Of a stretch of DNA of 64,000 nucleotides, positions 16,990 to 34,602 are shown in pieces. Every line of letters starts with the position of its first letter. Position 1 is the stretch's first letter. The notes beneath the pieces are model-generated. The model had not been told where the DNA came from. It saw only the letters and a list, made by a program, of their open reading frames with translations, and ran no database searches. The DNA comes from Marispirochaeta aestuarii. GTDB lineage: Bacteria; Spirochaetota; Spirochaetia; JC444; Marispirochaetaceae. The DNA is taken from NCBI RefSeq assembly GCF_002087085.1, contig NZ_MWQY01000021.1:1-64000 (forward strand). The letters are read 5' to 3'. The translations under genes were made by a program, and so were the position numbers.

Positions 16990-17487
16990 CTATGCATCAG
17001 ATTTTGGTATGCTGTTACGGATAAAATATTGAATATGAGCAATAAGCGAATCAGAAGCAGATTTGGATATAGCGCTACCGCTTGTAAACGTTATGGCAAC
17101 ATCCAGAAGATCTTCAACATCAGTTTCACTTTTCGCAACTAAAACACCTTCATATTTTCCAATGTTCTCTGCTGTGTGTACCTGATGATTATTCCTGTGT
17201 TCACCATATATCTGTAGCCGAGGAAGTATAATGATAGGCTTGGCAAGTTCAAGAGACTTTAGAATACTGCCCATTCCTGCATGAGAAACAACCACATCAG
17301 CTTTCTTCACATACTGCTCAAACTGTTCCGGTTTAATAAATTGTGATGCAGAAAATCCGGAAGGAAAGTATCCACCAGGACCAACCTGAAAGATAACATC
17401 ACTAGCTTTGTGCTTTTTTGCCCAAGCTTCAACAGTTCTCACCAAGCGGTTAAAAGGGAGCTGCATTCCAACAGTAACAAAAATCAC
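16990..17487 (-). CDS. PssE/Alg13-like glycosyltransferase subunit
   Basis: This is the catalytic C-terminal half of a split GT-B enzyme. From GTG 17487 it begins VIFVTVGMQLPFNRLVRTVE, the hallmark start of PssE/EpsF proteins, and contains VVSHAGMGSILKSLELAKPIIILPR, the UDP-sugar-binding GHAGxGS-like region, followed by HNNHQVHTAE. It works only together with the membrane-anchored PssD partner encoded immediately upstream. GTG lies in a GTGA overlap with the partner's stop and has AAAGGAGC before it, so the pair is made in equal amounts. The longer open frame to 17565 is not needed. Confidence 0.85.
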   Translation of the reverse strand: MIFVTVGMQLPFNRLVRTVEAWAKKHKASDVIFQVGPGGYFPSGFSASQFIKPEQFEQYVKKADVVVSHAGMGSILKSLELAKPIIILPRLQIYGEHRNNHQVHTAENIGKYEGVLVAKSETDVEDLLDVAITFTSGSAISKSASDSLIAHIQYFIRNSIPKSDA

Positions 17488-17933
17488 ATAACAGCTCCTT
17501 TGTATTCTGGCCCCTTCGGACAGGCTAAATCGTTCCATTGTGTCAGCCATTGATCTGAAAACCATCTGGCGAGTCGACCAGACATAGACATCTTTTCAAC
17601 ATTCGCAATGCTGTCAAGCCACAAAGTTTTTGCACCAAGTAATTTCCCAAATACAAGAACAAAAAGCCCTGGAGCAGCCCCTGTGGTAATCACTACCCTT
17701 GGCTTTACCCGAATAACGATCCATAGCGCAGAAAACATGCATCTAACTAAAGACAGCTTCGTCCACCTATTGGCGTCAGGTATTATATAAAGCGGACATC
17801 CCGCAATATCTAACTGTGAATCGGGATTTACGGTTGCATAAACCACATTGAAACCTTCGAATGCGGTTCTCAAACGTAAGAGTTGAACCCAATGTCCGCC
17901 CCCTGAGGAAACAGCTAGAACTTTATCTCTCAT
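17484..17933 (-). CDS. PssD/Alg14-like glycosyltransferase membrane-anchor subunit
   Basis: The 149-residue protein has the Alg14/PssD pattern: an N-terminal VLAVSSGGGHWVQLLRLR, a hydrophobic helix (LVRCMFSALWIVIRVKPRVVITTG) and a conserved GAAPGLFVLVFGKLLGAKTLWLDSIAN. It anchors and helps the PssE-like protein to add a sugar, usually glucuronic acid or GlcNAc, to a lipid-linked acceptor. The two genes overlap by four bases. Confidence 0.85.
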   Translation of the reverse strand: MRDKVLAVSSGGGHWVQLLRLRTAFEGFNVVYATVNPDSQLDIAGCPLYIIPDANRWTKLSLVRCMFSALWIVIRVKPRVVITTGAAPGLFVLVFGKLLGAKTLWLDSIANVEKMSMSGRLARWFSDQWLTQWNDLACPKGPEYKGAVM

Positions 17934-17951
17934 TATTGTTTCTCTTTCCTT

Positions 17952-18791
17952 TTAACTCTTGATCCGAGATGATTCATCTCGCTCCCATTTCTTTCTTCCA
18001 GTAAATTGATTCATCTTACCCTTAAATTTGGCAACGAGTGAAACATAAATGTAAATAAGTGAATCTTTTATTGAAACTTTTTGTTCAATCATTCGTTTTA
18101 AACTTAATGTCGGTGAAGTGGTCTCATTGTTAAATAGTTTAGGGTATTTTTTTCGTAATTCATAAGTTCCACCATGTGATCTGCTTTTTATTTTTATAAG
18201 ATTAGCAAGATCCCTTGGGGTAGTAACAACTACGCTGCTCGATTTCACTGTAACCCTTTCTGAAGGGTGGAAGTGCAGCCGAACAAAGCCGTCATCTGCT
18301 ATTATATCTGGAAATTCTTCAAACCGTCTGCGTCCCTCTTCAGATAAACCATAAGCACCGGCGATTCTCCCGGATTCAAAATAGGGCATCCGTCTCCAGA
18401 CCCTATAATATGCTTTAACTGCTGAACTGGCCGTTGAATCGTCAAAAATAAACTCTGGTGCTGCTGCTAAAACACCGACCTTCTCAAGTTCATCGGCAAC
18501 TTTTTTAAGGTCTGCAAAGGTAAAAATGATGTCAGAATCTACATAAAAACGAGGAAAGCTTGAAACAAGTTTATCCCCGATATTAAGTGATTGTACCTTT
18601 GATGGAATATCTGATTCTATTACCGTTATTGGTCCCGGTATGCTTCTTGCGACTTCAGCCGTTTTATCAGAACAACCATTGCAAACAACAACGACTTCCA
18701 TTTGATCAGGAGGAGCACCTTTTGTAATAGCCCTTAAAGATCGAGCAATAAATTTCTCCTCATTGTGAGCAGGCATCACAACAGATATCAT
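17952..18791 (-). CDS. GT2-family glycosyltransferase
   Basis: The 279-residue GT-A enzyme begins ISVVMPAHNEEKFIARSL, with VVVCNGCSDKTAEVA and a metal site of form DSD (RFYVDSDIIF, about residue 85). It resembles glycosyltransferases that extend lipid-linked oligosaccharides. No membrane segment is seen. It lies 18 bases downstream of the next GT2 gene's region and directly upstream of the PssD/PssE pair on the same strand. Confidence 0.85.
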   Translation of the reverse strand: MISVVMPAHNEEKFIARSLRAITKGAPPDQMEVVVVCNGCSDKTAEVARSIPGPITVIESDIPSKVQSLNIGDKLVSSFPRFYVDSDIIFTFADLKKVADELEKVGVLAAAPEFIFDDSTASSAVKAYYRVWRRMPYFESGRIAGAYGLSEEGRRRFEEFPDIIADDGFVRLHFHPSERVTVKSSSVVVTTPRDLANLIKIKSRSHGGTYELRKKYPKLFNNETTSPTLSLKRMIEQKVSIKDSLIYIYVSLVAKFKGKMNQFTGRKKWERDESSRIKS

Positions 18792-18792
18792 T

Positions 18793-19719
18793 CTAAACAG
18801 TCTCCCATTCGCTTCGCCTATACCATACTTTTTTCCAGGAATGAAATGATGGAGAATTATTTTTTTTGACCATAGAAATAAAAAACAAGACTGTCATCCG
18901 TGAAAAAGTCCACATTTCCAGCATCAAGATTGCATATTTTCTCTTAATCCCTTTCCAGTGTTTCCGGAAAAGCTGAACCTTAGCTGTTAGTAATCTGATC
19001 ATCTTATCCTCTTTAACTACTTCTGACGCACCCCCAAAATGGATAATTTTAGCGTCAGGGACAATAATACAAAACCTATTAATAGCCGCCGACCGCAGAC
19101 AAAGGTCGGCATCTTCTCCATACATATAAAACCGTGTATCAAAGCCTTCTAGACGATTCCATAAATCTCTATGGATCAGCAAAAAGCACCCGGTAACAAT
19201 GTCTACCCTGCGTGGTCTTTTCCAGTCCCACCACGATAGAGATTCCGGATTAAAGAAGCGTGACTTTCTGAATATAGAACTCAGGCCCGAAGCTGTAGAG
19301 AACAAACTCCATACGGTTGCCATATTCCAACCCGCAGTAGGATTACGGCTCATATCTCCAAAGAAGGTAGATCCACCATATATTCCGTATTCGGTATTTT
19401 TATCAGCAAAGTTCACAAGCTTATCGATAGCACCATCAAGAACCAAAGTGTCAGGATTCAATAATAAAATATAACGACCTTCAGCTTCTTCCGCTGCAAT
19501 GTTGTTGGCCGCGGCGAATCCCTTGTTACTGTAGAGACGGATTAATCGTACGCTGGGAAAACTTTTTTCTATCATATCAGCCGAATCATCGGTGGAATTA
19601 TTGTCTATTACCAGTATTTCAAAGTTAACCTGTTTCGTCTGCTCATAGACAGACGCAATGGCAGCACAGGTAAGCTCTGCAGTGTTGTAACTAACTATAA
19701 TTACAGAAACATCAATCAT
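18793..19719 (-). CDS. GT2-family glycosyltransferase (rhamnosyltransferase-like)
   Basis: From ATG 19719 the product begins IDVSVIIVSYNTAELTCAAI, followed by EILVIDNNSTDDSADMI and GRYILLLNPDTLVLDGAID, the GT2 subgroup of WbbL-like rhamnosyltransferases. It continues with the GCFLLIHRDLWNRLEGFDTRFYMYGEDADLCLR region containing the catalytic-base ED. It has about 308 residues. The start overlaps the stop of the outer-membrane barrel gene (AATGATTGA). The open frame to 19779 is an upstream extension without support. Confidence 0.85.
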   Translation of the reverse strand: MIDVSVIIVSYNTAELTCAAIASVYEQTKQVNFEILVIDNNSTDDSADMIEKSFPSVRLIRLYSNKGFAAANNIAAEEAEGRYILLLNPDTLVLDGAIDKLVNFADKNTEYGIYGGSTFFGDMSRNPTAGWNMATVWSLFSTASGLSSIFRKSRFFNPESLSWWDWKRPRRVDIVTGCFLLIHRDLWNRLEGFDTRFYMYGEDADLCLRSAAINRFCIIVPDAKIIHFGGASEVVKEDKMIRLLTAKVQLFRKHWKGIKRKYAILMLEMWTFSRMTVLFFISMVKKNNSPSFHSWKKVWYRRSEWETV

Positions 19720-20350
19720 TGTCTTCTTCAATTTCTCCGTTTGAGATAGCTTGTTTAAACAGATAAACAGTGACACCAATGGAAGCCTGATTTCCTAAAT
19801 CGCTAATATCTGTTCCGATTCTGTAATTAAAAGAAGTATCTCCGTCGCTGCTGCTCCGGCTAAATGCAAAACCCATACCATATTCAGCAAAAAGAGACAA
19901 AAAATCAAAAACATAAATCTCCGCACCTAACAATGCAGTTATACCGGCTGTATAAGATGTAGTTTCACTGCTGCTTAAATCATCTTCACCATCGAATTCG
20001 TACCCTAATATCAGTGAACCTCCCCAATAGGGAGATACCCTGCCGGTAAAAAAAGGTCGTTCATAGGTGCCACCCAATCCCATTTCAAAAATATTGTCGC
20101 TGCTCTCATAGTCCACATTGACTGAAGCACGTATGGCATAATCATCGGCTTTTAACTTGATGCCGACTCCGGACTGATAGTCTCCCAGGCTCAGCAGGAT
20201 ATCGCTGGTGGTAAATATCAGGCCAGGTGTATACCGACCAAAGATTAGCCCATCGGGCTCTTTGTCTGATGTATCACTTGATTCCTGTGCGTTCACAATA
20301 GCGATATTTACAAACAGGAAAAATAGAACAAATAGAAAACTCTTTTTCAT
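19712..20350 (-). CDS. Outer-membrane beta-barrel protein
   Basis: The 212-residue protein has a signal peptide (KKSFLFVLFFLFVNIAIVNAQ) and alternating strands rich in Gly, Tyr and Ser (SLGDYQSGVGIKLKADD, GVTVYLF near the end) as in small outer-membrane barrels. It is preceded by an FN3-type lipoprotein gene on the same strand. It could be a porin or a surface-glycan export or assembly accessory. No specific family was recognised. Confidence 0.65.
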   Translation of the reverse strand: MKKSFLFVLFFLFVNIAIVNAQESSDTSDKEPDGLIFGRYTPGLIFTTSDILLSLGDYQSGVGIKLKADDYAIRASVNVDYESSDNIFEMGLGGTYERPFFTGRVSPYWGGSLILGYEFDGEDDLSSSETTSYTAGITALLGAEIYVFDFLSLFAEYGMGFAFSRSSSDGDTSFNYRIGTDISDLGNQASIGVTVYLFKQAISNGEIEEDND

Positions 20351-20379
20351 ATTACACCTTTTAAAACGACAGTATGTAA

Positions 20380-20841
20380 TTATTCTTTTGGCTGAGTGAG
20401 CACCAAATACCAGCCACCGGCAGGTTTAGCAGAAAAATCGGTAGAGGAGTGTATATCCAATTCCCGACCGTTGTTGAGAACTTCAGAAACTCCCAGTTCA
20501 TAGGTTCCATATCCACCAAGTTCCACGGCTGAGAGTGTTATACAAAGCTTGAAACCTGAAGTCGACTTAATATAATTCCATTTTTCTTGATCAGGATTTC
20601 GATAGTAAATATTGAAATGCTCAATTGAAGATGGCAAATCAGGTATTCGGGGTTCTTCAGCTTCCCAGGCCAGCATAAAGGAGTCCCGTTCTAAATGGAC
20701 AGGTAGGGCACCCATCTCTCCAAAGAAATCTTCCAGGGGTAGTTTACAGCCGGAAAGGTATATAAGGGCAAAGAAAAATAGTAAATACCGCAGCAGGCCG
20801 TCTGGAAAATTGTAAAAACCGCCAGGTTTGCATGACTTCAT
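20380..20841 (-). CDS. Single-FN3-like lipoprotein, paralogue of the 38.9 kb lipoprotein
   Basis: The 153-residue product has a hydrophobic segment ending in a lipobox (IYLSGC) and one beta-sandwich domain that resembles fibronectin type III (DSFMLAWEAEE, FNIYYRNPDQEKWNYI, YELGVSEV, GGWYLVLTQ). The same order of motifs occurs in the lipoprotein at 38875-39303 (DSFTLAWNPSE, YNVYYRPHETETWLFL, YEFAVSSY, TGWYLVWNQ), so the two are paralogues. It lies upstream of the barrel gene. ATG at 20841 is chosen over a GTG two codons earlier. Confidence 0.75.
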   Translation of the reverse strand: MKSCKPGGFYNFPDGLLRYLLFFFALIYLSGCKLPLEDFFGEMGALPVHLERDSFMLAWEAEEPRIPDLPSSIEHFNIYYRNPDQEKWNYIKSTSGFKLCITLSAVELGGYGTYELGVSEVLNNGRELDIHSSTDFSAKPAGGWYLVLTQPKE

Positions 20842-21038
20842 CTCCACCTACCACTCTGTTCGCAATACTTGGTTGCCGTATACGTCAAACTAATAAAAAC
20901 TCCCTTAATAAGCTTATCTCCTTAATTCCTTAAGATCCAACTTATCAGGTAACTCAAAAGACTATCCTGCTTTTATGTCATGATTATGGCAGATTGACAG
21001 CAATACACCTGCTGAGTATTGTCAGTTAGGGGGCCAGC

Positions 21039-22250
21039 ATGGTGTATGAATACAGCTCCAACGAAGAAAAGCTGATTATAGCTCTTCTTAATAGAAACAA
21101 TGTCTCTGCTCTCGACATTGCCGAAAACACAACCCTGAATACACGAAAACTGGTATCCATGGCTGACCGGCACATGGTTTTCCCCCTCATTCTTGATCGC
21201 CTTTTCCACCTTCCTCTTCAGAATATCCCCGCTGATGAACTCTTCCCGAAGGGCAGAAGAATCATAATCGCTGCTGCTGCAGTCAATATGAAACTCCGCA
21301 GTGAACTTTCTCGTACTACTCGTATTCTGGGAAAAGAAGGGATCAGCTTTCTTCTGATAAAGGGTTTCGCCGTCGACAAGAATCCGCTTCGTAAAACCAA
21401 CGATATTGATATTCTCATTCACAGGGAAGATCTCCACAGGACTGTAGCCCTTCTCGAAAAAGCCGGCTATAACTATACCGGAAGCGGGGTTATGTCAGCA
21501 AAAGAAATACAAAACCCCTTCGGCACCCTTGACTGGAACAACCAGTTTCAGTTCGAAACTCCCTCCGGTGGAGTCAGCCTCGAAGTGCACACAAATCTTT
21601 TTGAAAGGGACAGAATACGCCTCGAAAAACTCGACAAGTTTCTGGATAATGTGGATCTCTTCTGGAAAGAAAGCCGTTTTGACGAAGAACTCGGATGCAG
21701 TATCCCCTCCACGGAAGCCACACTGGCGCTCTTATGCGTCCATTCGTCAACAAAGAGATCCCCGGCACACAATACCTATATAGCACGGCACGCCTACGAC
21801 ATACTGCAAACCCTCAAGTGTGGTGTAGACCAGAGCCGTTTCATCTCGCTGTGCACTTCCTGGGGTCTGGAATACTACGCCTATACTGCTTTATACCTGA
21901 CATCCTTGTGTCTGAATACTGACGCTCCCCTGAATGCAGCAGCACCACTTGAAGATTTACTTTCAAAAAGATGTAAACGTCTCGCGGATATACACCTGAA
22001 ATGCTTTCGCGGCCTTGGGCATGCGTCTTTTTTCTATCGGATGCTTTTTGCTCTTCTTATGCCGATGGCTATTGGCGGAAACCTTCGCAAAATTCTCAGG
22101 CACTATCGTCTTATTGTTTTTCCGCCTCTATGGCAGCAGGAAAACCTCTTTGGCGTAAGGCGTGACTCGGCGGCTATATACCTGACGTATCTGTACGGAC
22201 CCTTTGTACGCGCCTTTGTTATTATGAAGCGCTGGTTATCAGATGGCTGA
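21039..22250 (+). CDS. Nucleotidyltransferase-like protein of lasso-peptide type (NTP_transf_5)
   Basis: This 403-residue protein has the NTP_transf_5 signature ISFLLIKGFAVDK then TNDIDILIHRED, which supplies the paired aspartates of the nucleotidyltransferase fold (residues about 110-135). The rest is helical. Family members are encoded in many lasso-peptide clusters together with an HPr-kinase-like kinase. In the pseudomycoidin system such a protein is tied to glycosylation of the phosphorylated C-terminal serine. Here it converges on the lasso operon, with only 25 bases between its stop and that of the subtilase gene. A GGGGG ribosome site precedes the ATG. A tailoring role is inferred from the context. 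Confidence 0.8.
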   Translation: MVYEYSSNEEKLIIALLNRNNVSALDIAENTTLNTRKLVSMADRHMVFPLILDRLFHLPLQNIPADELFPKGRRIIIAAAAVNMKLRSELSRTTRILGKEGISFLLIKGFAVDKNPLRKTNDIDILIHREDLHRTVALLEKAGYNYTGSGVMSAKEIQNPFGTLDWNNQFQFETPSGGVSLEVHTNLFERDRIRLEKLDKFLDNVDLFWKESRFDEELGCSIPSTEATLALLCVHSSTKRSPAHNTYIARHAYDILQTLKCGVDQSRFISLCTSWGLEYYAYTALYLTSLCLNTDAPLNAAAPLEDLLSKRCKRLADIHLKCFRGLGHASFFYRMLFALLMPMAIGGNLRKILRHYRLIVFPPLWQQENLFGVRRDSAAIYLTYLYGPFVRAFVIMKRWLSDG

Positions 22251-22275
22251 TAAAAATCTTTTCCTCATCAAGCGT

Positions 22276-23727
22276 TTATAAATCTCTGCGCACTATAACG
22301 TAGTACACTCCTCCCTGAAGTTTAACATCAAAGCTTATACTTTCACTCCCAGGTAAAGGGGCTCCTACAGAGACAAGGCGCCCAGCAATATTATAAAGAT
22401 ACATTCCTATACCGGCCTCGTTTTCCGGAATCTCCAAAGAGATTTCCATAACTCCTGCATCCGCGTGTATTTGCCAGCAATGAGAAAAACTCCCCTCCTC
22501 TATCCTGCGGGCAGCGAAACCAGTAATGTTTTCATAGAGATTTATTCCGAAGGACAGTGCCGCCACAGGGTCGATGAGACCCTTTCCGTAGTACGGGTCC
22601 GTGTAAGGTTCTCCGAGGTCCACAGCGGTATTCTCCATAGCAGCTCGGATCTCAGCAGGAGAAAGCGAAGGTTGAGCAGACTTCAGTAGCGCTGCGAGGG
22701 CAGAAACATGGGGTGCTGCCTGCGAGGTACCCGCAAGGTACCAGAAATCTTCATTCCCGTATTGAACTGCCGGTAAAGGTACATAAATTACTGTATGCTG
22801 CAGGATCGCATCCCGCAGTCCGTCACCTACTACATTTGCCGTTGAGCCGCCTCCGGGTGCCACGACATCCAGTTCAGGACCGTAATTGGAATATTCCGTC
22901 CGGTTGCCTGCGAAATCAACTGCACCGACGGCTACAACTTCCTCAAACGCTGCAGGATACCGGACACTATCGTTGTTGTTGCCCGCTGCAGCTACAATAG
23001 TGACGCCCATGGAAACGGCGTTCTGAATGGCCGTATGAAGACCTTCCATGCCCTCCGGAGTTACAGCTTCGGGGTCCCCAATGCTGAGATTAATAATATC
23101 GGCGCCGTTGGAAGCAGCCCAATCAATCCCTTGAGCAATAAGGTCGCTGCTGCTCATCATATCGTTTTGAATGACCTTGACCGGCATTAAACTCACCCCG
23201 AAGGCCATCCCGGCAGTACCAAAGGCATTGTTCGTCGCCTGTGCTATTGTGCCAGCAACGTGGGTACCGTGTCCGATAGAATCCGAAGTGTCACCGTTGT
23301 TGTCAACGATGTTTCTTCCAGTAACAAAATTTACCCCGTTAAAATCCGGGAGTTCTTGATTTATACCCGTATCAAGAACAGCAACCACAACGCTGGGGTC
23401 TCCTGTTACAGAAGCCCAGACTGCCGGCATTTCGAGATGCTGCAGGTTCCACTGCTCATTATACAGTGTATCGTCGGGAGTAGAATCAATATCCGGGTTG
23501 TATACCGGGCCGTTATAAGGATCAAAATCAACCCCAGGACTATCTGAAACAGGAACAAAATTGTCTAGGAATTTCGAAAACCAGGTACCCGACAGTGTAT
23601 ATGAGGATGTGTCTGTTAGAACATCCGACTCAATTTTATCCGAATCAAGGCTGCAGGAAATAAAGTAAAAAAACTCAATAAAAAAAAAGAGGTATGTAAT
23701 TACAGTTGAATACCTGGTATTAATCAC
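22276..23727 (-). CDS. Lipoprotein subtilase (S8 peptidase) at the end of the lasso operon
   Basis: The 483-residue protein begins with a hydrophobic segment and a lipobox-like FISC, so it should be anchored outside the cytoplasmic membrane. The subtilisin triad is complete: Asp in VVAVLDTGIN (about residue 117), His in GHGTHVAGTIA (about 155) and Ser in LAGTSQAAPHVS (about 333). A beta-rich C-terminal domain of some 80 residues follows. GTG at 23727 overlaps the stop of the exporter gene (GTGA), so it is translated with it. S8 enzymes are not core lasso enzymes. It could trim exported peptide, act in immunity, or be unrelated. It is not the S9-type lasso isopeptidase. Confidence 0.85.
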   Translation of the reverse strand: MINTRYSTVITYLFFFIEFFYFISCSLDSDKIESDVLTDTSSYTLSGTWFSKFLDNFVPVSDSPGVDFDPYNGPVYNPDIDSTPDDTLYNEQWNLQHLEMPAVWASVTGDPSVVVAVLDTGINQELPDFNGVNFVTGRNIVDNNGDTSDSIGHGTHVAGTIAQATNNAFGTAGMAFGVSLMPVKVIQNDMMSSSDLIAQGIDWAASNGADIINLSIGDPEAVTPEGMEGLHTAIQNAVSMGVTIVAAAGNNNDSVRYPAAFEEVVAVGAVDFAGNRTEYSNYGPELDVVAPGGGSTANVVGDGLRDAILQHTVIYVPLPAVQYGNEDFWYLAGTSQAAPHVSALAALLKSAQPSLSPAEIRAAMENTAVDLGEPYTDPYYGKGLIDPVAALSFGINLYENITGFAARRIEEGSFSHCWQIHADAGVMEISLEIPENEAGIGMYLYNIAGRLVSVGAPLPGSESISFDVKLQGGVYYVIVRRDL

Positions 23728-25562
23728 ACGACTTCTCTTTCCTGATAATTCCTCGCCTGAGTTTCGAATAGTTCAGCATAGATACCACCCTCAGAGAGGA
23801 GCTCTTCGTGAGTACCACTCTCAACTATGCGACCCGAGTTAAGCACAAAGATTCTGTCTGCCATCCTCACCGTGGACATTCTGTGACTGATAAGAAGAGC
23901 TGTCCGGCCATCGAGAATATCCCTGAAACCGCTGAACAGTTCGAATTCCGCTCGGGGATCCATTGAACTGGTTGGTTCGTCAAGAACAACCACAGGGGCA
24001 TCGCGGAAGAATGCTCGTGCAAGAGCTATTTTCTGCCATTGTCCGATACTGAGTTCACTTCCCTTATCAAAGAAACGACCAAGAACTTCATTATAGCCTT
24101 CGGCAAGCTTCTCTATTTCTTCGTGGATGCCAGCTTTCCTGGCGGCATTTTCGATATCAGGCGAAATCTCAGAATAATCCACGTTACCAAACCAGATATT
24201 ATCCCGCACCGTCAAATTGTAATGGGCGTAATCCTGGAAGATAACTCCAAGCTTTTTTCTCAACTCCTCAGGTTCCATTCCCCGGATATTTGTTCCGTCC
24301 AGGAACACACTGCCCTTATCCGGGTCGTAGAGACGGCAGAGGAGTTTTACCAGTGTTGTTTTACCTGCTCCATTCAAACCCACAAGCGCGGCAACCTCAC
24401 CATGATGGAGACGAAGGTTTACACCGCGCAGGATCTCCTTGTCCGTTCCGGGATAAGTAAACCAGAGATTTTCGAAAGCAATGGCCGCATGTTGATCTTC
24501 AACCTGCTTGGTATGCAGGATGTTTTTTTCAGCAGCGATCCGGGATTTGATGTCAAGAAACTCGTAGAGGTTTGTAAGAAACAGATTGTTCTCGTAGAGC
24601 TTCGCTGCGTTTTCCAGTACCGCCTGAAGAAAGGACTGCCCCCTTTGAAAGGCCTGGTAAAACATGACAAAGGCCCCCAGGGAGATTCTACCCACCAACG
24701 CATCCCGGGCAACCCAGAAGTATGCACCAAACACGAGGACTGTGGAAAACACGTGAGATGCGGCCCCGTATTTGGCAGTTCTGAGATCCAGAGCAAGACG
24801 AATCTTTCGCAGCTCTTTCCTCAAAGCCTGAAAACGCCTGATAAACGTAGGACCAAGGCCGAACATCCTGATTTCTTTCGCGAATTCCCTTCCCACGAGC
24901 ATAAAGTGGTAATACGCAGCCCTGCGCTCCCGGGAGGTATACCTGCGCTCCAGTAGATACTCCCGTTCGGAAAATAGAATACGGATGAACAAAGGCGGTA
25001 ACATGGCGGCAACAAGCAGTAAAAGTACCTGGGGCTTGAAAGAAAAGAGAAGCCAGCCGACCCCGATCAGAGAAATACCGTTCCGAAACAGGGCAGCCAG
25101 GGAGTTTACAATGACCCCGGGCCTGTAAACCGCCTCTTCCTGGGCTCTGTGCAGGGTATCCTGATAGGCGGAGTTCTCGTAGTACTCAAGGTCTACAGCG
25201 GTCGCCTTCTTCTGGATCACATCGTGCATGTGATCTACAACCCGTCTGCTTTGCTCTTTGTTGACAACGAGGCCCAGGGTTCTGGAAATACCGGTCAGCA
25301 GTGCTGCCATGCCGACCGCTGTAAGTACAATAAGCACTTTTCCAGACATAGCTTCAGGACCGGCCGCAACCGTGCCTTCCGCAACAGTATCAACCAGGAC
25401 TTTCAGCAGATAGAGGGTCACAACAGGAAGCATACCCTGAATAAAGAGCAGCACAAGATTCGCAATGGTCCAGCCCCGAGAGCTTTTCCATACGAAACCA
25501 AATGCCCTCTTTACATTGAAAGTTGTAAGTACAACGTCCTTAAGCTTTTCCTGAATTTTCAT
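23724..25562 (-). CDS. ABC exporter with fused membrane and ATPase domains (lasso D-type)
   Basis: A half-size ABC exporter of 612 residues. It has six hydrophobic segments in the first 320 residues, then Walker A GLNGAGKTTLVKLL (about 388), signature LSIGQWQKIALARA (about 504) and Walker B VVVLDEPTSS (about 524), with the D-loop and H-loop (LLISHRMSTV). There is no C39 peptidase domain, which fits lasso systems where B2 removes the leader. It probably exports the mature peptide and gives self-protection. ATG 25562 lies in an ATGA overlap with the kinase gene. The frame to 25580 is an extension. Confidence 0.85.
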   Translation of the reverse strand: MKIQEKLKDVVLTTFNVKRAFGFVWKSSRGWTIANLVLLFIQGMLPVVTLYLLKVLVDTVAEGTVAAGPEAMSGKVLIVLTAVGMAALLTGISRTLGLVVNKEQSRRVVDHMHDVIQKKATAVDLEYYENSAYQDTLHRAQEEAVYRPGVIVNSLAALFRNGISLIGVGWLLFSFKPQVLLLLVAAMLPPLFIRILFSEREYLLERRYTSRERRAAYYHFMLVGREFAKEIRMFGLGPTFIRRFQALRKELRKIRLALDLRTAKYGAASHVFSTVLVFGAYFWVARDALVGRISLGAFVMFYQAFQRGQSFLQAVLENAAKLYENNLFLTNLYEFLDIKSRIAAEKNILHTKQVEDQHAAIAFENLWFTYPGTDKEILRGVNLRLHHGEVAALVGLNGAGKTTLVKLLCRLYDPDKGSVFLDGTNIRGMEPEELRKKLGVIFQDYAHYNLTVRDNIWFGNVDYSEISPDIENAARKAGIHEEIEKLAEGYNEVLGRFFDKGSELSIGQWQKIALARAFFRDAPVVVLDEPTSSMDPRAEFELFSGFRDILDGRTALLISHRMSTVRMADRIFVLNSGRIVESGTHEELLSEGGIYAELFETQARNYQEREVV

Positions 25563-26488
25563 GCTCCGTCTCCGAGGCATTCTTCTTTTTCCGACAGCAC
25601 ATAATCTACCCGGGCTGCGACTTCCTGGAGTACATCGAAGCGACGCGGACGGGCAAGACGAAAAACCCGTACTTTGGAGGCGAGATTAGCAATCTCCCTG
25701 AAATAGCGTTCCTGACCAAAAATGGGCAACAGTTGTCCATCGAAAAGGGCTCCGTACCAGTGGGGCAGGAGCGCGCGAACAGCTTTAAACCCCGATAACC
25801 TCTCAATCACAATTTCATCGGCTGTTTCGAGCACAAAAACCGCTTTCAGGAAGGCCTGTGTCGTGATAAAACGGTCGTTTACCGTGCGAGACATCTTTTT
25901 AAACCCGGGGAAAATCATGGAAAGCGTGTCATCTCCGTCTGTCAGAGCCTCGGCGGATTCTGTCCAGAGTTTTGAGCGGGGAAAACCAGGGGAAACCAAG
26001 GGATGTTCGTTATCGAAAGAAACCGCCGTTAGGTCGTCGCTTATCATTCCATACCCTGCATTGTACATGGCGGCGGCCATTGTCGATTTTCCCTCTCCTT
26101 TTACAGCCGCAAAGGCAACAGCAGCTCCTGTAAGGGGACACGCTACCCCTGCAGCGTGGAATACCGCCCATCCCCTTTGTATAAGAAGGACTCCAAGGAC
26201 AGGCCCTGTCAAAACCAGGCGTACAAGGGCTTCATCAACTCCATGCCGGGGAGATATTGTCACCTGCCTTCCTTCCTGTACAAGGAATGAACCAATAGCG
26301 TTCCAGTGCAGAAGAACTCCTCCATTGAAGGGAACCATGAGACGAACGTTCTCCCCCTCGGGACAACCGGGAGGAGGGGCAAGCTCTCTCGTCAGCATGA
26401 TCACATCCGGTTCTCCCTGGGTGGGAGAAAATTCCGGTATATGTATATCTGATCCGATGCGTAACCCGAATGCGGTGGAATAGTACAT
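25559..26488 (-). CDS. HPr-kinase-like tailoring kinase of the lasso cluster
   Basis: The 309-residue protein has the HPrK/P C-terminal fold without a normal N-terminal domain. A P-loop variant AVKGEGKSTMAAAM lies around residues 126-139, and GMISDDLTAV about 20 residues later supplies the paired aspartates. Homologues in paeninodin- and pseudomycoidin-type clusters phosphorylate the side chain of the precursor's C-terminal serine. Here the predicted precursor ends Val-Ser-Gly, so the serine is next to last, which is unusual for this kinase. ATG 26488 follows AAGAGGAACC. It lies just downstream of the precursor gene and overlaps the exporter gene by four bases. Confidence 0.85.
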   Translation of the reverse strand: MYYSTAFGLRIGSDIHIPEFSPTQGEPDVIMLTRELAPPPGCPEGENVRLMVPFNGGVLLHWNAIGSFLVQEGRQVTISPRHGVDEALVRLVLTGPVLGVLLIQRGWAVFHAAGVACPLTGAAVAFAAVKGEGKSTMAAAMYNAGYGMISDDLTAVSFDNEHPLVSPGFPRSKLWTESAEALTDGDDTLSMIFPGFKKMSRTVNDRFITTQAFLKAVFVLETADEIVIERLSGFKAVRALLPHWYGALFDGQLLPIFGQERYFREIANLASKVRVFRLARPRRFDVLQEVAARVDYVLSEKEECLGDGA

Positions 26489-26585
26489 GGTTCCTCTTGT
26501 CACTTTTTATACATGGCAGGCTGGCGGGAAGGGCTCACAGCCCCTAAAAAATGTAATGAAAAAGAACGATTAGAAAATAAGCGCG

Positions 26586-26606
26586 CCGGCTAATTGTATC
26601 AGCCGG
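26586..26606 (-). terminator. Stem-loop over the precursor stop codon (partial terminator or processing signal)
   Basis: On the minus strand CCGGCT, a nine-base loop GATACAATT and AGCCGG form a six-pair GC-rich stem that includes part of the TGA stop codon of the precursor gene. After CGCG it is followed by a T-rich stretch (CTTATTTTCT). This may slow or partly stop transcription after the precursor, or shield the 3' end of its message, as is common in RiPP operons that need far more precursor than enzyme. Confidence 0.45.
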
Positions 26607-26721
26607 ACACACCCCAGGAAAAGATCCAGAAGCTGTCTGAGTTTCCTCTCCAGCCTTCCCCACGGGTCAGTTCGGCGATATCACCGAGAATGACCAATTG
26701 GGGCGATTCATATTTTTTCAT
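26599..26721 (-). CDS. Lasso-peptide precursor (A), 40 residues
   Basis: The small gene between cyclase and kinase starts at ATG 26721 with GGAGG five bases upstream. It encodes a 20-residue leader, MKKYESPQLVILGDIAELTR, and a 20-residue core that begins GEGWRGNSDS and ends FWIFSWGVSG. The leader shows the canonical lasso spacing YxxPxLxxxGxxxxxT (Tyr4, Pro7, Leu9, Gly13, Thr19), with Thr at -2 from the cut. The core has Gly1 and only one acid at ring-closing distance, Asp9, so a nine-residue macrolactam is predicted. Trp12, Phe14 and Trp16 are candidate steric plugs. Leader length and family signature match RRE-dependent split-B systems. The core is tryptophan-rich and does not match a lasso peptide I know. 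Confidence 0.93.
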   Translation of the reverse strand: MKKYESPQLVILGDIAELTRGEGWRGNSDSFWIFSWGVSG

Positions 26722-26756
26722 AAATACCTCCGAAAAAAAGAACTTTTATAAATTTG

Positions 26757-28805
26757 TTATTCAACAGCAGAATACTGTGAGCCCTTCCCGCCAGGCTGCT
26801 TTGAATTACCATTTTTCATCCAGCGGTCCAGAACCGCTGCTTGCCATATATTGGTGATAACAGTGTCTTTATCCTGCCCGCCCCCATTCTTGAAGTCTCC
26901 CAAAGTTTCCTTGAGACGTTCCTGGTTCATAAAATGCTTGGCATTATTCGAAAGATACTCTGTAAGACCAAGAATGCGGGAGCTTTCAAAACGCTTAAGC
27001 CCTTGCCGAAGAACATCAGCAAGATCCCCCTTACCTGAACGGGTCCTTATTTCCTCCGGAAGAATCCCCTTAAGGGACTCACGGAGTATATATCTGCTGA
27101 CTCCATTCCGCAGCTTGAGATGCGGGGGAACGGAAAGACAAAACTCTGCAAGTCGGGCATCGCAGAAAGGATGACGTACCTCTATATCATAATAGGAGGC
27201 CATTCTATCCAGGCATTCCAGCGTATAAGGAAGAGCACCGGAAGTCAGCCTGTCGTAATGACTCTGCCGGAGATGTGCAGGGAAACGGGATGATCGGTAA
27301 CGATTGTCTATCTCCTGGAGTTTATCTTTTACCCTGTACTTGGCTGCAAGCCCGACATCCATAATACCCGTGTCGAAAACGGAAGATTTTTTACCGTACG
27401 AAATCAACGCCTTAAGCCCGTGGTCTATCAGCAGCTGTTTTCGGGAATACCCGAATAATCGATGTATATGCCGAAGGGCATGAAAATATTTGATCCACTG
27501 TCCGGTTTTCGCAAGGTATTCCAGGTAAGGAATACCGTGGGCCTTGAGCATTCCTGTCTTCGAAGCATACGTGCGGCTGTTATCAAAGGCACGAACAACC
27601 GCCTCGCATTCTTCCGCAAAGATTTGCCAGGAACCGCTCTGAACGAGCTGCAGAAGAAAATCGATTCCGTGTGAGACCGTTGTGTCTCCGTCCTCTCCGT
27701 CGAGGATAATTTTTACCCCGTCATCCCTTGCTGCTCGATAAATATCCAGATGTATAAAATAATTCGCTCCGTAAAACGGCCCATCATGAAGCCATATCAT
27801 AGCGTCCAGGTCCGATAGAGGACTTCTCTGATCAGGGTGGACTTTCCTGCTCACGACCCCCTGGCGATCATGTAAAGCAGCGTCTATCCAATGGCGTTCG
27901 TCCGCGGAAGGTACACTATCGAAAACCGCTGAGTACGTAAAAAGCGGCAGCCGGCTCTGCTTTTCGAGAATATCACGGGAAGCACATGCAATGGATGAGG
28001 AATCGAGTCCTCCGCTCAGGGTGCAACCGATCTTCGATTTTCCCCGGAGCCGGTTTTCGACCGAACGGAGGAAGACGTCCTTAAACGCATCGAAATACTC
28101 TTTTTCAGAGGAGTATTCCGCTTCCCGGTACGGGTCGAGTTTCCAGTAGTGCTCTTTGTGAATAGACTCACGGGAAACAAGGACACGGTGTGCCGGCTCC
28201 AGGCGTTTTACACTCCGGTACATTGTTATTGTTTTGTCCCCAAGAAGAAGTTCAGGGAAAAAGTGTACGCATATTCGTTCTTCGTTTATATCCTCTGGGA
28301 CTTCCGTCAGAGCAATCAGTGCTTTGGGTTCAGACGCAAAGGCGAAAATATGGTCGGAACTATAAAGACACAAGGGCTTCACACCAAAATGGTCTCGGGC
28401 GCAGAACAGGGTTTTCGTGCGTATGTCCCAGACAGCAAATGTGAAATCACCATAGAAATGATCTACGCATGATGTACCCCACCGGCGGTATGCAGCAAGT
28501 ACAATCTGGCCATCAGTGACATTTGCACCAAAACATTCAGCGGGGTCTAAAGCTGCGGTTATTTCAGTCCGATTGTCCAGTCGAATATCTCCGACTAAAT
28601 ACAGGTTGTCATCTTTGAGAAGCGTGCCGCCAAAGGTCTCTTCGATGGAATTTGAAGAAAATCCAAAAGCGAAAGCTACGGGACCATCAGATATTGACTG
28701 GATACCCTTTCCACAGCGATGAGGCATGGACAGGATCATGTTCTCTACCGTTTCCGTCTGCGCAGGTCTGCCATCCCGGTAGAATAATCCTGCTATTCCG
28801 CTCAG
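26757..28805 (-). CDS. Lasso cyclase (C), asparagine-synthetase-like, probable CTG start
   Basis: This 682-residue AsnB homologue activates the core aspartate by adenylation and closes the macrolactam. The N-terminal half is a glutaminase-like domain without Cys2. The P-loop CTLSGGLDSSSIACAS lies around residue 264, followed by LDGEDGDTTVSHG and YRSSRFPAHLR. The first ATG in frame is 28739, but the 22 codons upstream encode SGIAGLFYRDGRPAQ, the conserved start of lasso cyclases. The codon before Ser is CTG at 28805-28803, with AAGGAG seven bases upstream. CTGA overlaps the B2 stop exactly as ATGA would. I therefore start the gene at CTG. Arm 2 of the inverted repeat lies in its last codons. 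Confidence 0.9.
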   Translation of the reverse strand: MSGIAGLFYRDGRPAQTETVENMILSMPHRCGKGIQSISDGPVAFAFGFSSNSIEETFGGTLLKDDNLYLVGDIRLDNRTEITAALDPAECFGANVTDGQIVLAAYRRWGTSCVDHFYGDFTFAVWDIRTKTLFCARDHFGVKPLCLYSSDHIFAFASEPKALIALTEVPEDINEERICVHFFPELLLGDKTITMYRSVKRLEPAHRVLVSRESIHKEHYWKLDPYREAEYSSEKEYFDAFKDVFLRSVENRLRGKSKIGCTLSGGLDSSSIACASRDILEKQSRLPLFTYSAVFDSVPSADERHWIDAALHDRQGVVSRKVHPDQRSPLSDLDAMIWLHDGPFYGANYFIHLDIYRAARDDGVKIILDGEDGDTTVSHGIDFLLQLVQSGSWQIFAEECEAVVRAFDNSRTYASKTGMLKAHGIPYLEYLAKTGQWIKYFHALRHIHRLFGYSRKQLLIDHGLKALISYGKKSSVFDTGIMDVGLAAKYRVKDKLQEIDNRYRSSRFPAHLRQSHYDRLTSGALPYTLECLDRMASYYDIEVRHPFCDARLAEFCLSVPPHLKLRNGVSRYILRESLKGILPEEIRTRSGKGDLADVLRQGLKRFESSRILGLTEYLSNNAKHFMNQERLKETLGDFKNGGGQDKDTVITNIWQAAVLDRWMKNGNSKQPGGKGSQYSAVE

Positions 28806-29269
28806 AACAGTACTCCTTCGATTCCCTCGAACAATTTGAAATCCTTAATGCCGGGGATATCTCCAACTACTATTTTCCCGTCCGATTCAAGCCAGGCGTG
28901 GGCGGTAAAATCCGATCCACTTGAACGAACGGCACCTATACGGAGAACCGTGTTATAGCCATAACGGGCAAAAAGGATTCGGCCGGCCAGGGCTTTTGGC
29001 AGACAGTCACAGTTTCCATGAAATATACCGGAACAGCGTTCAACAGCAAGACTAATATCATCTGCAGAAATCTTCACATTGCTGACGGATTTTCTTTTTT
29101 CTGCCAATTTGTTGACATTGGAAAGAACAGTTTTAAAAGGTTTTTTCCTGAGAGACTTCCGGACCCGACTAAGCCACAACCAGGAACTAAGAAATAAGTA
29201 TTTTTCCGCCGAAGTAAGCAGGAAAAATTTTTTAAACCTTTCGATCGACAATTTCAATAAGACCTTCAT
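28802..29269 (-). CDS. Lasso leader peptidase (B2), transglutaminase-like
   Basis: The 155-residue protein has the transglutaminase-like cysteine protease fold of split lasso B2 proteins. Cys lies in GNCDCLPKAL (about residue 88), His in TAHAWLESDG (about 123) and Asp in IVVGDIPG (about 137). It removes the leader so that the Gly1 amine is free for ring closure. It needs the B1 protein to present the leader, and the two genes overlap by 38 bases. ATG 29269 has AAGG close to it. A TTG five codons in with a better-spaced ribosome site is an alternative. Confidence 0.9.
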   Translation of the reverse strand: MKVLLKLSIERFKKFFLLTSAEKYLFLSSWLWLSRVRKSLRKKPFKTVLSNVNKLAEKRKSVSNVKISADDISLAVERCSGIFHGNCDCLPKALAGRILFARYGYNTVLRIGAVRSSGSDFTAHAWLESDGKIVVGDIPGIKDFKLFEGIEGVLF

Positions 29270-29516
29270 CCTTGAGTTTTTCCAGTAAAGCCTGGATATC
29301 TGGTGAACAAACTTTTAAACTAACGTCAAATTCCTCAGTAACTGCATCACAAAGGTTGCGCACAAGCACCGGAGTGGTCATGAGTTTCCACACGAATGCA
29401 CCAACCTCGTTAAGTCCAAAATAGATGCCCCTCTCGACATGCATTAAAACGGCCTCGCCATCCAGCTGTGTGGCTAAAACACCATCGTGTGCCTTTACTT
29501 TCGTTTCCAAATCCAT
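29232..29516 (-). CDS. Lasso RRE / PqqD-like leader-binding protein (B1)
   Basis: The 94-residue protein has the PqqD/RRE winged-helix pattern (VLATQLDGEAVLMHVERGIYFGLNE, then GAFVWKLM and a helix ending in LKDEGLIEIVD). It binds the leader through its Tyr/Pro/Leu motif and delivers it to B2 and C. It is the first gene of the lasso operon on the minus strand. The ribosome site is weak (AAGG before a run of A), so it may be expressed below the precursor. Confidence 0.9.
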   Translation of the reverse strand: MDLETKVKAHDGVLATQLDGEAVLMHVERGIYFGLNEVGAFVWKLMTTPVLVRNLCDAVTEEFDVSLKVCSPDIQALLEKLKDEGLIEIVDRKV

Positions 29517-29766
29517 TTTTAAACCTTTTTTTAAGATTAATAGTCCTGAAGAATCCCTTCCATTATGGTTCTATCCATAGAGCTCCAGAACGCTGTAAAT
29601 CAACTTCATTCCTCACATAGAACACAGACAAATATCATCGATTTTTCAATCGACGTTTTGTCGTATTCTCTGAGGAAAATCGTCCGACCTTCCGATGCCG
29701 CCGAAACAGGCTATCCAGGCCATTATGTAAGGTACATACAACGGGAAGTCCTATCCCGCAGTATGC
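29517..29766. other. Gene-free stretch upstream of the lasso operon
   Basis: Between the barrel gene and the lasso B1 gene there are 250 bases with no credible gene on either strand. A short inverted repeat (TCGAT, loop, ATCGA) lies near 29638-29655. On the minus strand a weak promoter-like pair, TTGATT and TATGGA 18 bases apart, is about 80 bases upstream of B1. Neither is strong. If the lasso operon has its own promoter it should be here. Confidence 0.35.
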
Positions 29767-30474
29767 TTATAATTCAAAAACAACTCCGGTTCTGATTGTC
29801 ACACTAAAATCCATCTTGTCAGTCATTACCGGCTCGCCACCGATATAGAATGTCCGGCCTTGGGGGCTCTTTTTCATTGCTGTCAGGTTGCCGCCGTATT
29901 TGAGAAGCGTTTCTCTTTCCGGAGCGATCTCACGCCCCTCCTCGGTTTCAAGACCGGTTAACTGGATGGTGTAATTATAATTCCGGTAGCCACCAAAGAT
30001 ACCGAAACGCAGGTGAAAAGAGTCACTGAGGGCAAAGTCTCTGAGTAGTTGAAGCTGGATATTATAGCCATGACCTTCGGTTTGCAGGTCATTATCCTCG
30101 AAGTAACTGCTATCAAGAATCGAATAGCCATAGCTTCCTGACAATTCCAGGGAGACCGGGGAGAAGTTCTCCTGTTTTACAAGTACAATCCCGTAGAAAA
30201 TCCCGATGTTGGTTTCGGTTGAGGATTGGGACTCGATCTCATCCATATTGACAGAGAATACCGCGCCCACATCGAGGACTCCGCCGATTGAATACCCAAG
30301 ACGACCTCCAACATCTTTAAGGCTTCCGTCGTCGTTCAATGAAGATTCAATGTTAAACAGAGCTGCGTTGATCCCGCTACGGGTATAACTGCTCTGAGCA
30401 CAGACCGGAACGCTTATTCCCAGAAGCAGTAAAATAAGGAGCCATATTCTTTTGTGAGCAGTTTTTTTATACAT
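29767..30474 (-). CDS. Outer-membrane beta-barrel protein
   Basis: From ATG 30474 (GGAAAGGG upstream) the 235-residue protein has a signal peptide (IWLLILLLLGISVPVCAQ) and alternating beta-strands (SLELSGSYGYSILDSSYF, FHLRFGIFGGYRNYNYTI), ending in the aromatic-hydrophobic TIRTGVVFEL expected for the outer-membrane insertion signal. It lies downstream of the NadE-like gene in the same orientation and upstream of the lasso genes. It is not similar to the barrel at 19.7 kb. Function unknown; possibly glycan or peptide passage through the outer membrane. Confidence 0.7.
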   Translation of the reverse strand: MYKKTAHKRIWLLILLLLGISVPVCAQSSYTRSGINAALFNIESSLNDDGSLKDVGGRLGYSIGGVLDVGAVFSVNMDEIESQSSTETNIGIFYGIVLVKQENFSPVSLELSGSYGYSILDSSYFEDNDLQTEGHGYNIQLQLLRDFALSDSFHLRFGIFGGYRNYNYTIQLTGLETEEGREIAPERETLLKYGGNLTAMKKSPQGRTFYIGGEPVMTDKMDFSVTIRTGVVFEL

Positions 30475-30490
30475 TGAACCCTTTCCTTTT

Positions 30491-31489
30491 TTACAGCACG
30501 TTTTCAACAAGCTGCGGAGCCATATGCAGGTAGGAAGTTGTCCTCCGCTTCTGTTCTATATCCGCGTAGACCCGTTCCAGCTGTTCGAGATTTATGCCGG
30601 CGGCGGAAGCAACCTGTTCCCGGGGAATACCCTTGTTTTTTCCGTACAGGCACAGATCCATCTTTTTGTAGGAGAGGGAAAAATAGAACTCCTCCTGGGA
30701 CTGGGGCAGGGAGTACGTATCCGTTGTAGGCGGTCTGCTGCGGATCTTCTCCGGTACACCGAGGTACTCCGCAAGCTGATACACCTGACTCTTGTACAGG
30801 TGGGCTATGGGTTTTATATCCGCCGCTCCGTCGCCAAGCTTGACGAAAAATCCCTGGTCGTATTCCAGGCGGTTCGGGGTGCCCGTAACCGCATAATTCA
30901 GCCGGTCCGCATGATAGTACTCGAACATCTTGCGCACCCGCTGTTTAAAGTTTGTTGCCGCCACAATCTCCAGGTAGGACTTATGGTCCAGACGCTTTTT
31001 TATTTCCCTGCCCTCCGGCGAAACAGCTACAAGGGAAAACAAACGTAACTGGCCGCTTTCCAGAACTCCGGGAAGTACAATCTTTGCCCGCCATCCCGGT
31101 CCATATTCCGGAATAAGTCTGCGGTAGGCCGCCTCTTGTCGGGCATAGCACCCCAAGGCAGTAAGAACTTCGGTTATATCCTGGTGCCCCGCCTCTATGC
31201 CGAAGTGCCCTGCTACCAGTCCGCTTAATTCCAGGGTATCCTCCGAGGAGTGTTGCTCCGGCATCTGCAGGCCGAAGACCTTATCCGGCCCCAGGGCCCT
31301 GACGCACAATGCTGCGACTGTGCTGCTGTCTATGCCGCCGGAAAGGGCTACCACTACACCCTGACGCTTCATTTTTAAGGCGATGGTCTCCTGAATCCAT
31401 CGACAGATACGTTCAACCTCAGCTGACGCATCAATCTCCAGGCTCTTCAGATTAAACACAGACTCAACTGTTCGCACCGGCCTCTCCAT
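30491..31489 (-). CDS. NadE-like ATP-pyrophosphatase amide ligase
   Basis: The 332-residue protein has the NH3-dependent NAD synthase fold: P-loop ALSGGIDSSTVAALC (about 45-59), TGTPNRLEYDQGFFVKLGDG and PIAHLYKSQVYQLAEYLGVP. It could be the cell's NAD synthase. However, its gene overlaps that of an acyl carrier protein by 26 bases and sits in a polysaccharide locus, which suggests amidation of a carrier-bound or sugar acid instead. No glutaminase domain is attached. Which substrate it uses cannot be read from the sequence. Confidence 0.75.
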   Translation of the reverse strand: MERPVRTVESVFNLKSLEIDASAEVERICRWIQETIALKMKRQGVVVALSGGIDSSTVAALCVRALGPDKVFGLQMPEQHSSEDTLELSGLVAGHFGIEAGHQDITEVLTALGCYARQEAAYRRLIPEYGPGWRAKIVLPGVLESGQLRLFSLVAVSPEGREIKKRLDHKSYLEIVAATNFKQRVRKMFEYYHADRLNYAVTGTPNRLEYDQGFFVKLGDGAADIKPIAHLYKSQVYQLAEYLGVPEKIRSRPPTTDTYSLPQSQEEFYFSLSYKKMDLCLYGKNKGIPREQVASAAGINLEQLERVYADIEQKRRTTSYLHMAPQLVENVL

Positions 31490-34391: not shown

Positions 34392-34601
34392 ATGGATACA
34401 ACAGCTGTAGAAAAGATAATCTCGGAACTCAGGGAAATGCAGAAAAGCCGGGGCTGTCCCGAAATCGATCTTCTGGAAACCGCCATGTTTCTGGAGGACG
34501 TCTTCGGAATACGCCTCGACGAATCGGAGATAGACGAATCCGTCCTTGGTCCCCCTGCAGATCTGACCGCATTTGTATCCTATAAACTGGGGGACTCCTG
34601 A
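34392..34601 (+). CDS. Acyl-carrier-like protein lacking the phosphopantetheine serine
   Basis: The protein of about 69 residues has the ACP helix II/III pattern (IDLLETAMFLEDVFGIRLDESEID), which aligns with DSLDLVELVMALEEEFGI. The acceptor serine, however, is a glutamate: PEID stands where DSLD should be. It therefore should not carry phosphopantetheine and may be a scaffold or regulatory pseudo-carrier. The ATG at 34392 is used; a TTG at 34350 extends the frame. Its stop is one base before the AsnB start. Confidence 0.75.
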   Translation: MDTTAVEKIISELREMQKSRGCPEIDLLETAMFLEDVFGIRLDESEIDESVLGPPADLTAFVSYKLGDS

Positions 34602-34602
34602 T

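Follow-up and report, generated by a model that had tools for sequence, protein, structure and literature searches.

A class II lasso-peptide cassette of known type in the spirochaete Marispirochaeta aestuarii

Does the spirochaete Marispirochaeta aestuarii carry a complete lasso-peptide pathway and, if so, is the pathway of a new class? The question is raised by positions 21039–29516 of a 64,000-nucleotide stretch (contig NZ_MWQY01000021.1, positions 1–64,000; the window), for which an original prediction had proposed a lasso-peptide cluster of high novelty. The locus is genuine and complete: a class II lasso cassette, mobile in appearance, whose type is known but whose host is unusual. It does not represent a new class. 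It is read with high confidence as a functional-looking cassette of the paeninodin/pseudomycoidin type, which also bears a kinase (K) and a nucleotidyltransferase (N). Three features of the cassette are odd: a stem around the precursor gene, an S8 subtilase gene, and an altered peptide tail together with an altered N. The genes and their order, the motifs, the limits of the cassette and the singularity of the repeat behind the stem are observed directly; all activities, and the parts given below to S8 and the stem, are inferred.

Pathway genes and the predicted peptide

The genes lie in the order B1-B2-C-A-K-D-S8 on the reverse strand, with N convergent on the forward strand. The frames and coordinates of the genes originally named (B1, B2, C, a 40-residue precursor, the kinase, an ATP-binding cassette (ABC) exporter and the convergent nucleotidyltransferase) are real; the S8 peptidase gene and an inverted repeat around the precursor had been overlooked. 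B1 (29232–29516) is a predicted leader-binding, PqqD-like recognition element (RRE) of the kind found with ribosomally synthesized and post-translationally modified peptides (RiPPs; PF05402, 1e-19), and its score of 70.5 bits against NF033536 (lasso_PqqD_Bac) is under the strict cut-off of 80. In the conserved-domain check proposed for B2 and C, both exceed the curated lasso-family cut-offs. B2 (28802–29269), a transglutaminase-like leader peptidase, scores 71 bits against NF033537 (cut-off 33) and retains the catalytic Cys-His-Asp set (CLPKA...HAWLE...GD). C (26757–28805), an AsnB-like lasso macrolactam cyclase of 682 residues, scores 613 bits against NF033535 (cut-off 525) in a genome-wide search, with 26814–28805 aligned to model positions 1–667.

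The identity of C stands as first proposed. Its most likely start is the CTG of 28803–28805, favoured by the family model and the overlap with B2, rather than the ATG at 28739. Position 1 of NF033535 maps to 28805, 66 bases upstream of the ATG given by a simple open reading frame (ORF) call, and the ATG form scores 590 bits against the same cut-off of 525. The CTG is preceded by AAGGAG and forms, as CTGA, a 4-nt overlap with the B2 stop codon that is identical in cyanobacterial relatives; the resulting N-terminus, (M)SGIAGLFYRDG, is normal for AsnB-type proteins.

The precursor gene A (26599–26721, reverse strand) encodes 40 residues, with leader MKKYESPQLVILGDIAELTR and core GEGWRGNSDSFWIFSWGVSG. 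The leader fits the proposed YxxPxLxxxGxxxxxT pattern exactly, reading Y-ES-P-Q-L-VIL-G-DIAEL-T, and scores 28.5 bits against NF033521 (cut-off 19). In the whole 4.2-Mb genome the precursor is the sole match to the lasso-leader model at E ≤ 10 (1.3e-5). The observation of the cluster as a whole is far beyond chance. The leader ends in YESPQLVILGDIAELT-R followed by Gly1, placing Thr at −2, and the acidic residue, Asp9, is inside the 7–9 range; both Gly1 and Asp9 are present as had been described. The core contains no Cys and has Gly at position 1, as in class II. It contains three Trp residues, is unlike the other cores surveyed and terminates in Val-Ser-Gly. The assignment to a class II cluster with a nine-residue ring is backed by the curated family cut-offs and by the occurrence of the same genes in dozens of lasso loci.

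In the proposed pathway, B1 would bind the leader and B2 would cleave behind Arg20, at a point two residues beyond where the conserved Thr-Arg end begins. C would then link Gly1 to the side chain of Asp9 around the tail, for which Trp12, Phe14 or Trp16 are the likely plugs. The predicted mass of the lasso product (linear core minus water) is 2211.976 Da, in agreement with the earlier hand calculation of about 2212.0 Da. The product would be exported by D (23724–25580, reverse strand), an MsbA-like ABC exporter (PF00005, 7e-32; PF00664, 1e-7).

Cassette boundaries, host and relatives

The extent of the unit is delimited by a congener (G002) with an isoleucyl-tRNA synthetase that is 95% identical. 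The two genomes are collinear on both sides of the cluster: 17449–20687 and 29669 onward match stretches of G002 that are 267 bp apart. The ∼9-kb block missing from the congener (20688–29668, as given by where the alignments stop; on the left the true limit is possibly nearer to 20850) comprises only N, S8, D, K, A, C, B2 and B1. Since the congener is syntenic on both sides and is without exactly this block, the block is a cassette that was gained here or lost in G002, and its content of cluster genes alone supports regarding N and S8 as members of the unit. The description of the cluster as complete is thereby borne out independently.

The G+C content within the block (∼43–52%) is between that of an AT-rich polysaccharide region on its left and the 53–57% found beyond 34 kb. 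The polysaccharide region (1–20350; 33–42% G+C) encodes a flippase, glycosyltransferases and a hexapeptide transferase, and is conserved in the congener in patches only. The cassette is flanked by a β-barrel outer-membrane protein gene (29767–30510) and a small lipoprotein gene (20380–20847), which are adjacent in the congener. A second asparagine synthase (34573–36537, forward strand) lies outside the cassette, close to a sugar transferase and an ORF resembling AMP ligases, and scores 185 bits against the lasso cut-off of 525.

At least 575 relatives of C were confirmed across 84,980 species using an alignment-derived pattern, and the best 80 were kept; the closest among the matches listed are cyanobacterial (36–37% identity). 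Viral contigs yielded distant asparagine-synthase relatives only. A total of 84 loci were annotated with profiles grown from the window proteins. K stands beside C in 55 of these and N is present as well in 41 (counted by hand), the K/N-bearing loci spanning cyanobacteria, Bacillota, Bacteroidota, alphaproteobacteria, Acidobacteriota, Nitrospirota and two haloarchaea. The proposal that the kinase and nucleotidyltransferase are accessory enzymes agrees with their recurrence: dozens of other lasso loci have the same genes. The claim of high novelty is unsupported, since cyanobacteria, Bacillota and others commonly carry this set. The two haloarchaeal loci, on a plasmid of Halopiger xanaduensis (L012) and in Halosimplex salinum (L040), contain a lasso cyclase, RRE, B2, kinase and nucleotidyltransferase, together with candidate precursors of the YxxPxx type; the cores of these end in Thr or Phe rather than Ser.

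Apart from S8 after D and the inversion of N, the genes here follow the common cyanobacterial order, B1-B2-C-A-K-D-N. In a maximum-likelihood tree, C groups with 14 cyanobacterial cyclases, one from Desulfocapsa and one from Spirosoma (support 96/97), on a long branch. Architecture and cyclase phylogeny together place the cassette with the cyanobacterial B1-B2-C-A-K-D-N clusters, of the paeninodin/pseudomycoidin type. The clusters of Calothrix PCC 7103, Scytonema and Brasilonema (L021–L029) share the gene order, the B2/C overlap and the leader type, but have neither the S8 gene nor the stem around A, and their cores are Trp-poor and, where identified, usually end in Ser. The paeninodin cluster of Paenibacillus dendritiformis (with padeK) and its relative on a Priestia aryabhattai plasmid (L013) share B1, B2, C, K and D, with A directly downstream of C as here; however, C is only 24–28% identical to the Bacillota forms, and the present precursor has a different (YxxPxLxxxG) leader type and no C-terminal Ser. 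The pseudomycoidin cluster of Bacillus pseudomycoides (psmK, psmN) has in common the class II lasso genes, the HprK-like kinase and the nucleotidyltransferase homologue. The present locus differs from it in a core ending in Ser-Gly, a convergent N with a shortened motif, and an additional S8 lipoprotein gene.

FlaA (PF04620), a family of spirochaete periplasmic flagella, was found in all three genomes of the genus (4e-78 in this one) and in none of 14 control genomes, and marks the host as a spirochaete. In a sample of 393 genomes from the phylum, this one alone has a lasso cyclase that passes the curated cut-off, and the lasso pathway is apparently very rare in spirochaetes. Spirochaetes had been named as lasso hosts in earlier mining, but several of the clusters listed there did not hold up in a later survey (PMC4289311). 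In the same class, four further genomes in which B2 exceeds its cut-off were examined and rejected as lasso producers. Three (G419, G010 and G071) have B1, B2 and K, mostly with N, and no cyclase, and in the fourth (G088) only B1 and B2 were seen, with a leader-like ORF, KKAWKKPELERLGDVAELTKGYSISVRV, in the same locus (L017). The cyclase-free sets (L014 in G419, L015 and L016 in G010, L018 in G071) resemble the linear polyphosphorylated peptides (LPP), a linear phosphopeptide RiPP family (PMC13381572). LPP clusters share the RRE, HprK-like kinase, nucleoside triphosphate transferase and exporter with the present cluster, but are without a cyclase and have a signal-peptidase-like leader peptidase; the presence of C and B2 places the M. 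aestuarii cluster outside this family.

Tail-modifying enzymes and the subtilase

K (25559–26503, reverse strand) matches HprK-related models weakly (1e-7), and HPr kinase structures match its profile. Its most likely start, by reading, is the ATG at 26488, with AGAGGA just upstream, rather than the GTG at 26503. N (21039–22250, forward strand) is an NTP_transf_5 nucleotidyltransferase (PF14907, 1.3e-25), the family having one copy in this genome and none in two congeners. By sequence N found no match among solved structures; its predicted fold (mean predicted local distance difference test score 79) is of the pol-β-type nucleotidyltransferases, with Z scores of 11–12.6 to MenT1 and ANT(2'')-Ia.

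The characterized kinases PadeK, ThcoK, SyanK and PsmK act on the precursor, phosphorylating its C-terminal Ser, and PsmN attaches hexoses to the phosphoserine (PMC9266682). By analogy, K may phosphorylate a tail serine before cyclization, Ser19 being nearest to the C-terminus, and N may add to the phosphate made by K. Two observations weigh against this part of the reading. Ser is the last residue in 34 of 48 K-bearing loci with a precursor candidate (a few of these picks being doubtful), while here it is Gly. In addition, the segment from the KG to the DxD motif of N spans 19 residues, compared with 24 in 44 of 45 motif-bearing relatives; the five missing residues are the YGDxs stretch beside the active site.

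These points would also be expected if K and N were decaying relics and the working core pathway made a plain lasso peptide, and the convergent orientation of N relative to the operon fits the same picture. Against decay, K has an open reading frame and the residues His116, Lys139, Asp156 and Asp157, invariant across nine kinases in an alignment with K of other lasso loci, and N retains its invariant residues (P64, G109, D122, D124 and H184) as well as the predicted fold. Moreover, the related kinase LppK phosphorylates the core residue Ser3 (PMC13381572), so that the wider kinase family does not strictly depend on a Ser at the C-terminus. The relic explanation is accordingly possible, if on the doubtful side. 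A phosphorylated or hexosylated form of the product is uncertain. The +80 Da form originally suggested has in its favour a kinase with the full catalytic set, but the core ends in Gly where the characterized kinases modify a C-terminal Ser, and N is five residues short. Phosphorylation at Ser19 or elsewhere is possible because K has the His-Lys-Asp-Asp set and a related kinase modifies core residue 3.

The S8 gene (22276–23727, reverse strand; PF00082, 7e-61) encodes a subtilase with intact Asp, His and Ser in its LDTG, GHGTH and GTSQAAP motifs and a lipobox-like FISC with Cys25, as in a lipoprotein. Its start codon overlaps the stop codon of D by 4 nt. Translationally coupled to D, the lipoprotein probably meets the peptide after export, outside the cytoplasm, and either trims its tail or serves in its turnover. 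Lasso isopeptidases, as known so far, are another kind of enzyme and have been reported chiefly in alphaproteobacteria (PMC13352647). No paper linking lasso peptides to in-cluster subtilases, or to a stem such as that described below, was identified among the open-access papers searched.

A role of S8 in the pathway is weakened by its distribution. Neither a single-sequence nor a profile search found the family in the 84 lasso-type loci, which speaks against a conserved place for it in lasso clusters. Among other spirochaetes, homologues of S8 (up to 47% identity) stand alone, and no RiPP neighbours of these were found. That the gene is only a passenger, with no link to the peptide, is close to an even call, tilting slightly towards a connection with the peptide: it overlaps D by those 4 nt, lies inside the block absent from the congener and is the sole S8 gene of the genome, the family being absent from two congeners.

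The inverted repeat around the precursor gene

The left arm of the inverted repeat (26516–26540, extended 26509–26540) lies upstream of K, and the right arm (26775–26799, extended 26775–26806) lies in the nonconserved 3' end of C, past the end of the cyclase family model at 26814. Of the 25 positions in the arms, 24 are complementary, and A is the only gene bracketed by them. The repeat scores 22, and no other with a score of at least 14 occurs within 700 nt spacing in the window; five random sequences with the same dinucleotide make-up reach 12–14. With the arms paired, the transcript folds with a minimum free energy of −124.5 kcal/mol compared with −89.2 ± 5.4 for shuffles (z = −6.5). The arms pair at −52 kcal/mol, with a pairing probability of 0.81 in a 1.2-kb context. 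As modelled, the repeat is expected to form a long-range stem in the mRNA, with the precursor gene inside it.

RNase III could plausibly cut a stem of more than 20 pairs, and because of this the first guess is that processing separates the precursor message from the enzyme messages. The stem would probably set precursor expression apart from that of its neighbours, either through RNase III processing or through protected ends. Scans for promoters and terminators gave results at, or little above, shuffle level. Speaking against a general role, none of 40 related loci has a comparable repeat in the interval from C to K, which rules out the repeat as a conserved family feature. A transposon origin was also rejected: no target-site duplication is seen by eye and the genome holds no strong second copy, the best other match being 22 nt at 91%.

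Near-perfect arms around A alone could also be the ends of a DNA inversion switch, in which flipping the 284-bp segment silences the precursor without breaking C or K. A simulated flip does keep C open (687 residues, with new last residues) and leaves K untouched. Short arms without extra sites are, however, unusual for invertases, a serine recombinase is absent genome-wide (tyrosine recombinases were not searched) and no recombinase is annotated beside the cluster, although the window ORFs are not all classified. A switch of this kind is thus very unlikely, and the mRNA stem is the preferred interpretation. A bolder combination, in which a pre-rRNA-like stem excises or protects the precursor message and the surface subtilase replaces the isopeptidase or trims the tail (for example removing Gly20 and exposing Ser19), is speculative and appears unlikely.

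From the bracketing of the precursor gene comes a testable idea of how one operon could supply precursor and enzymes separately, and the S8 lipoprotein may reveal a post-export step. For the phylum, the cassette provides a well delimited candidate spirochaete lasso peptide where earlier genome-mining claims failed re-examination (PMC4289311).

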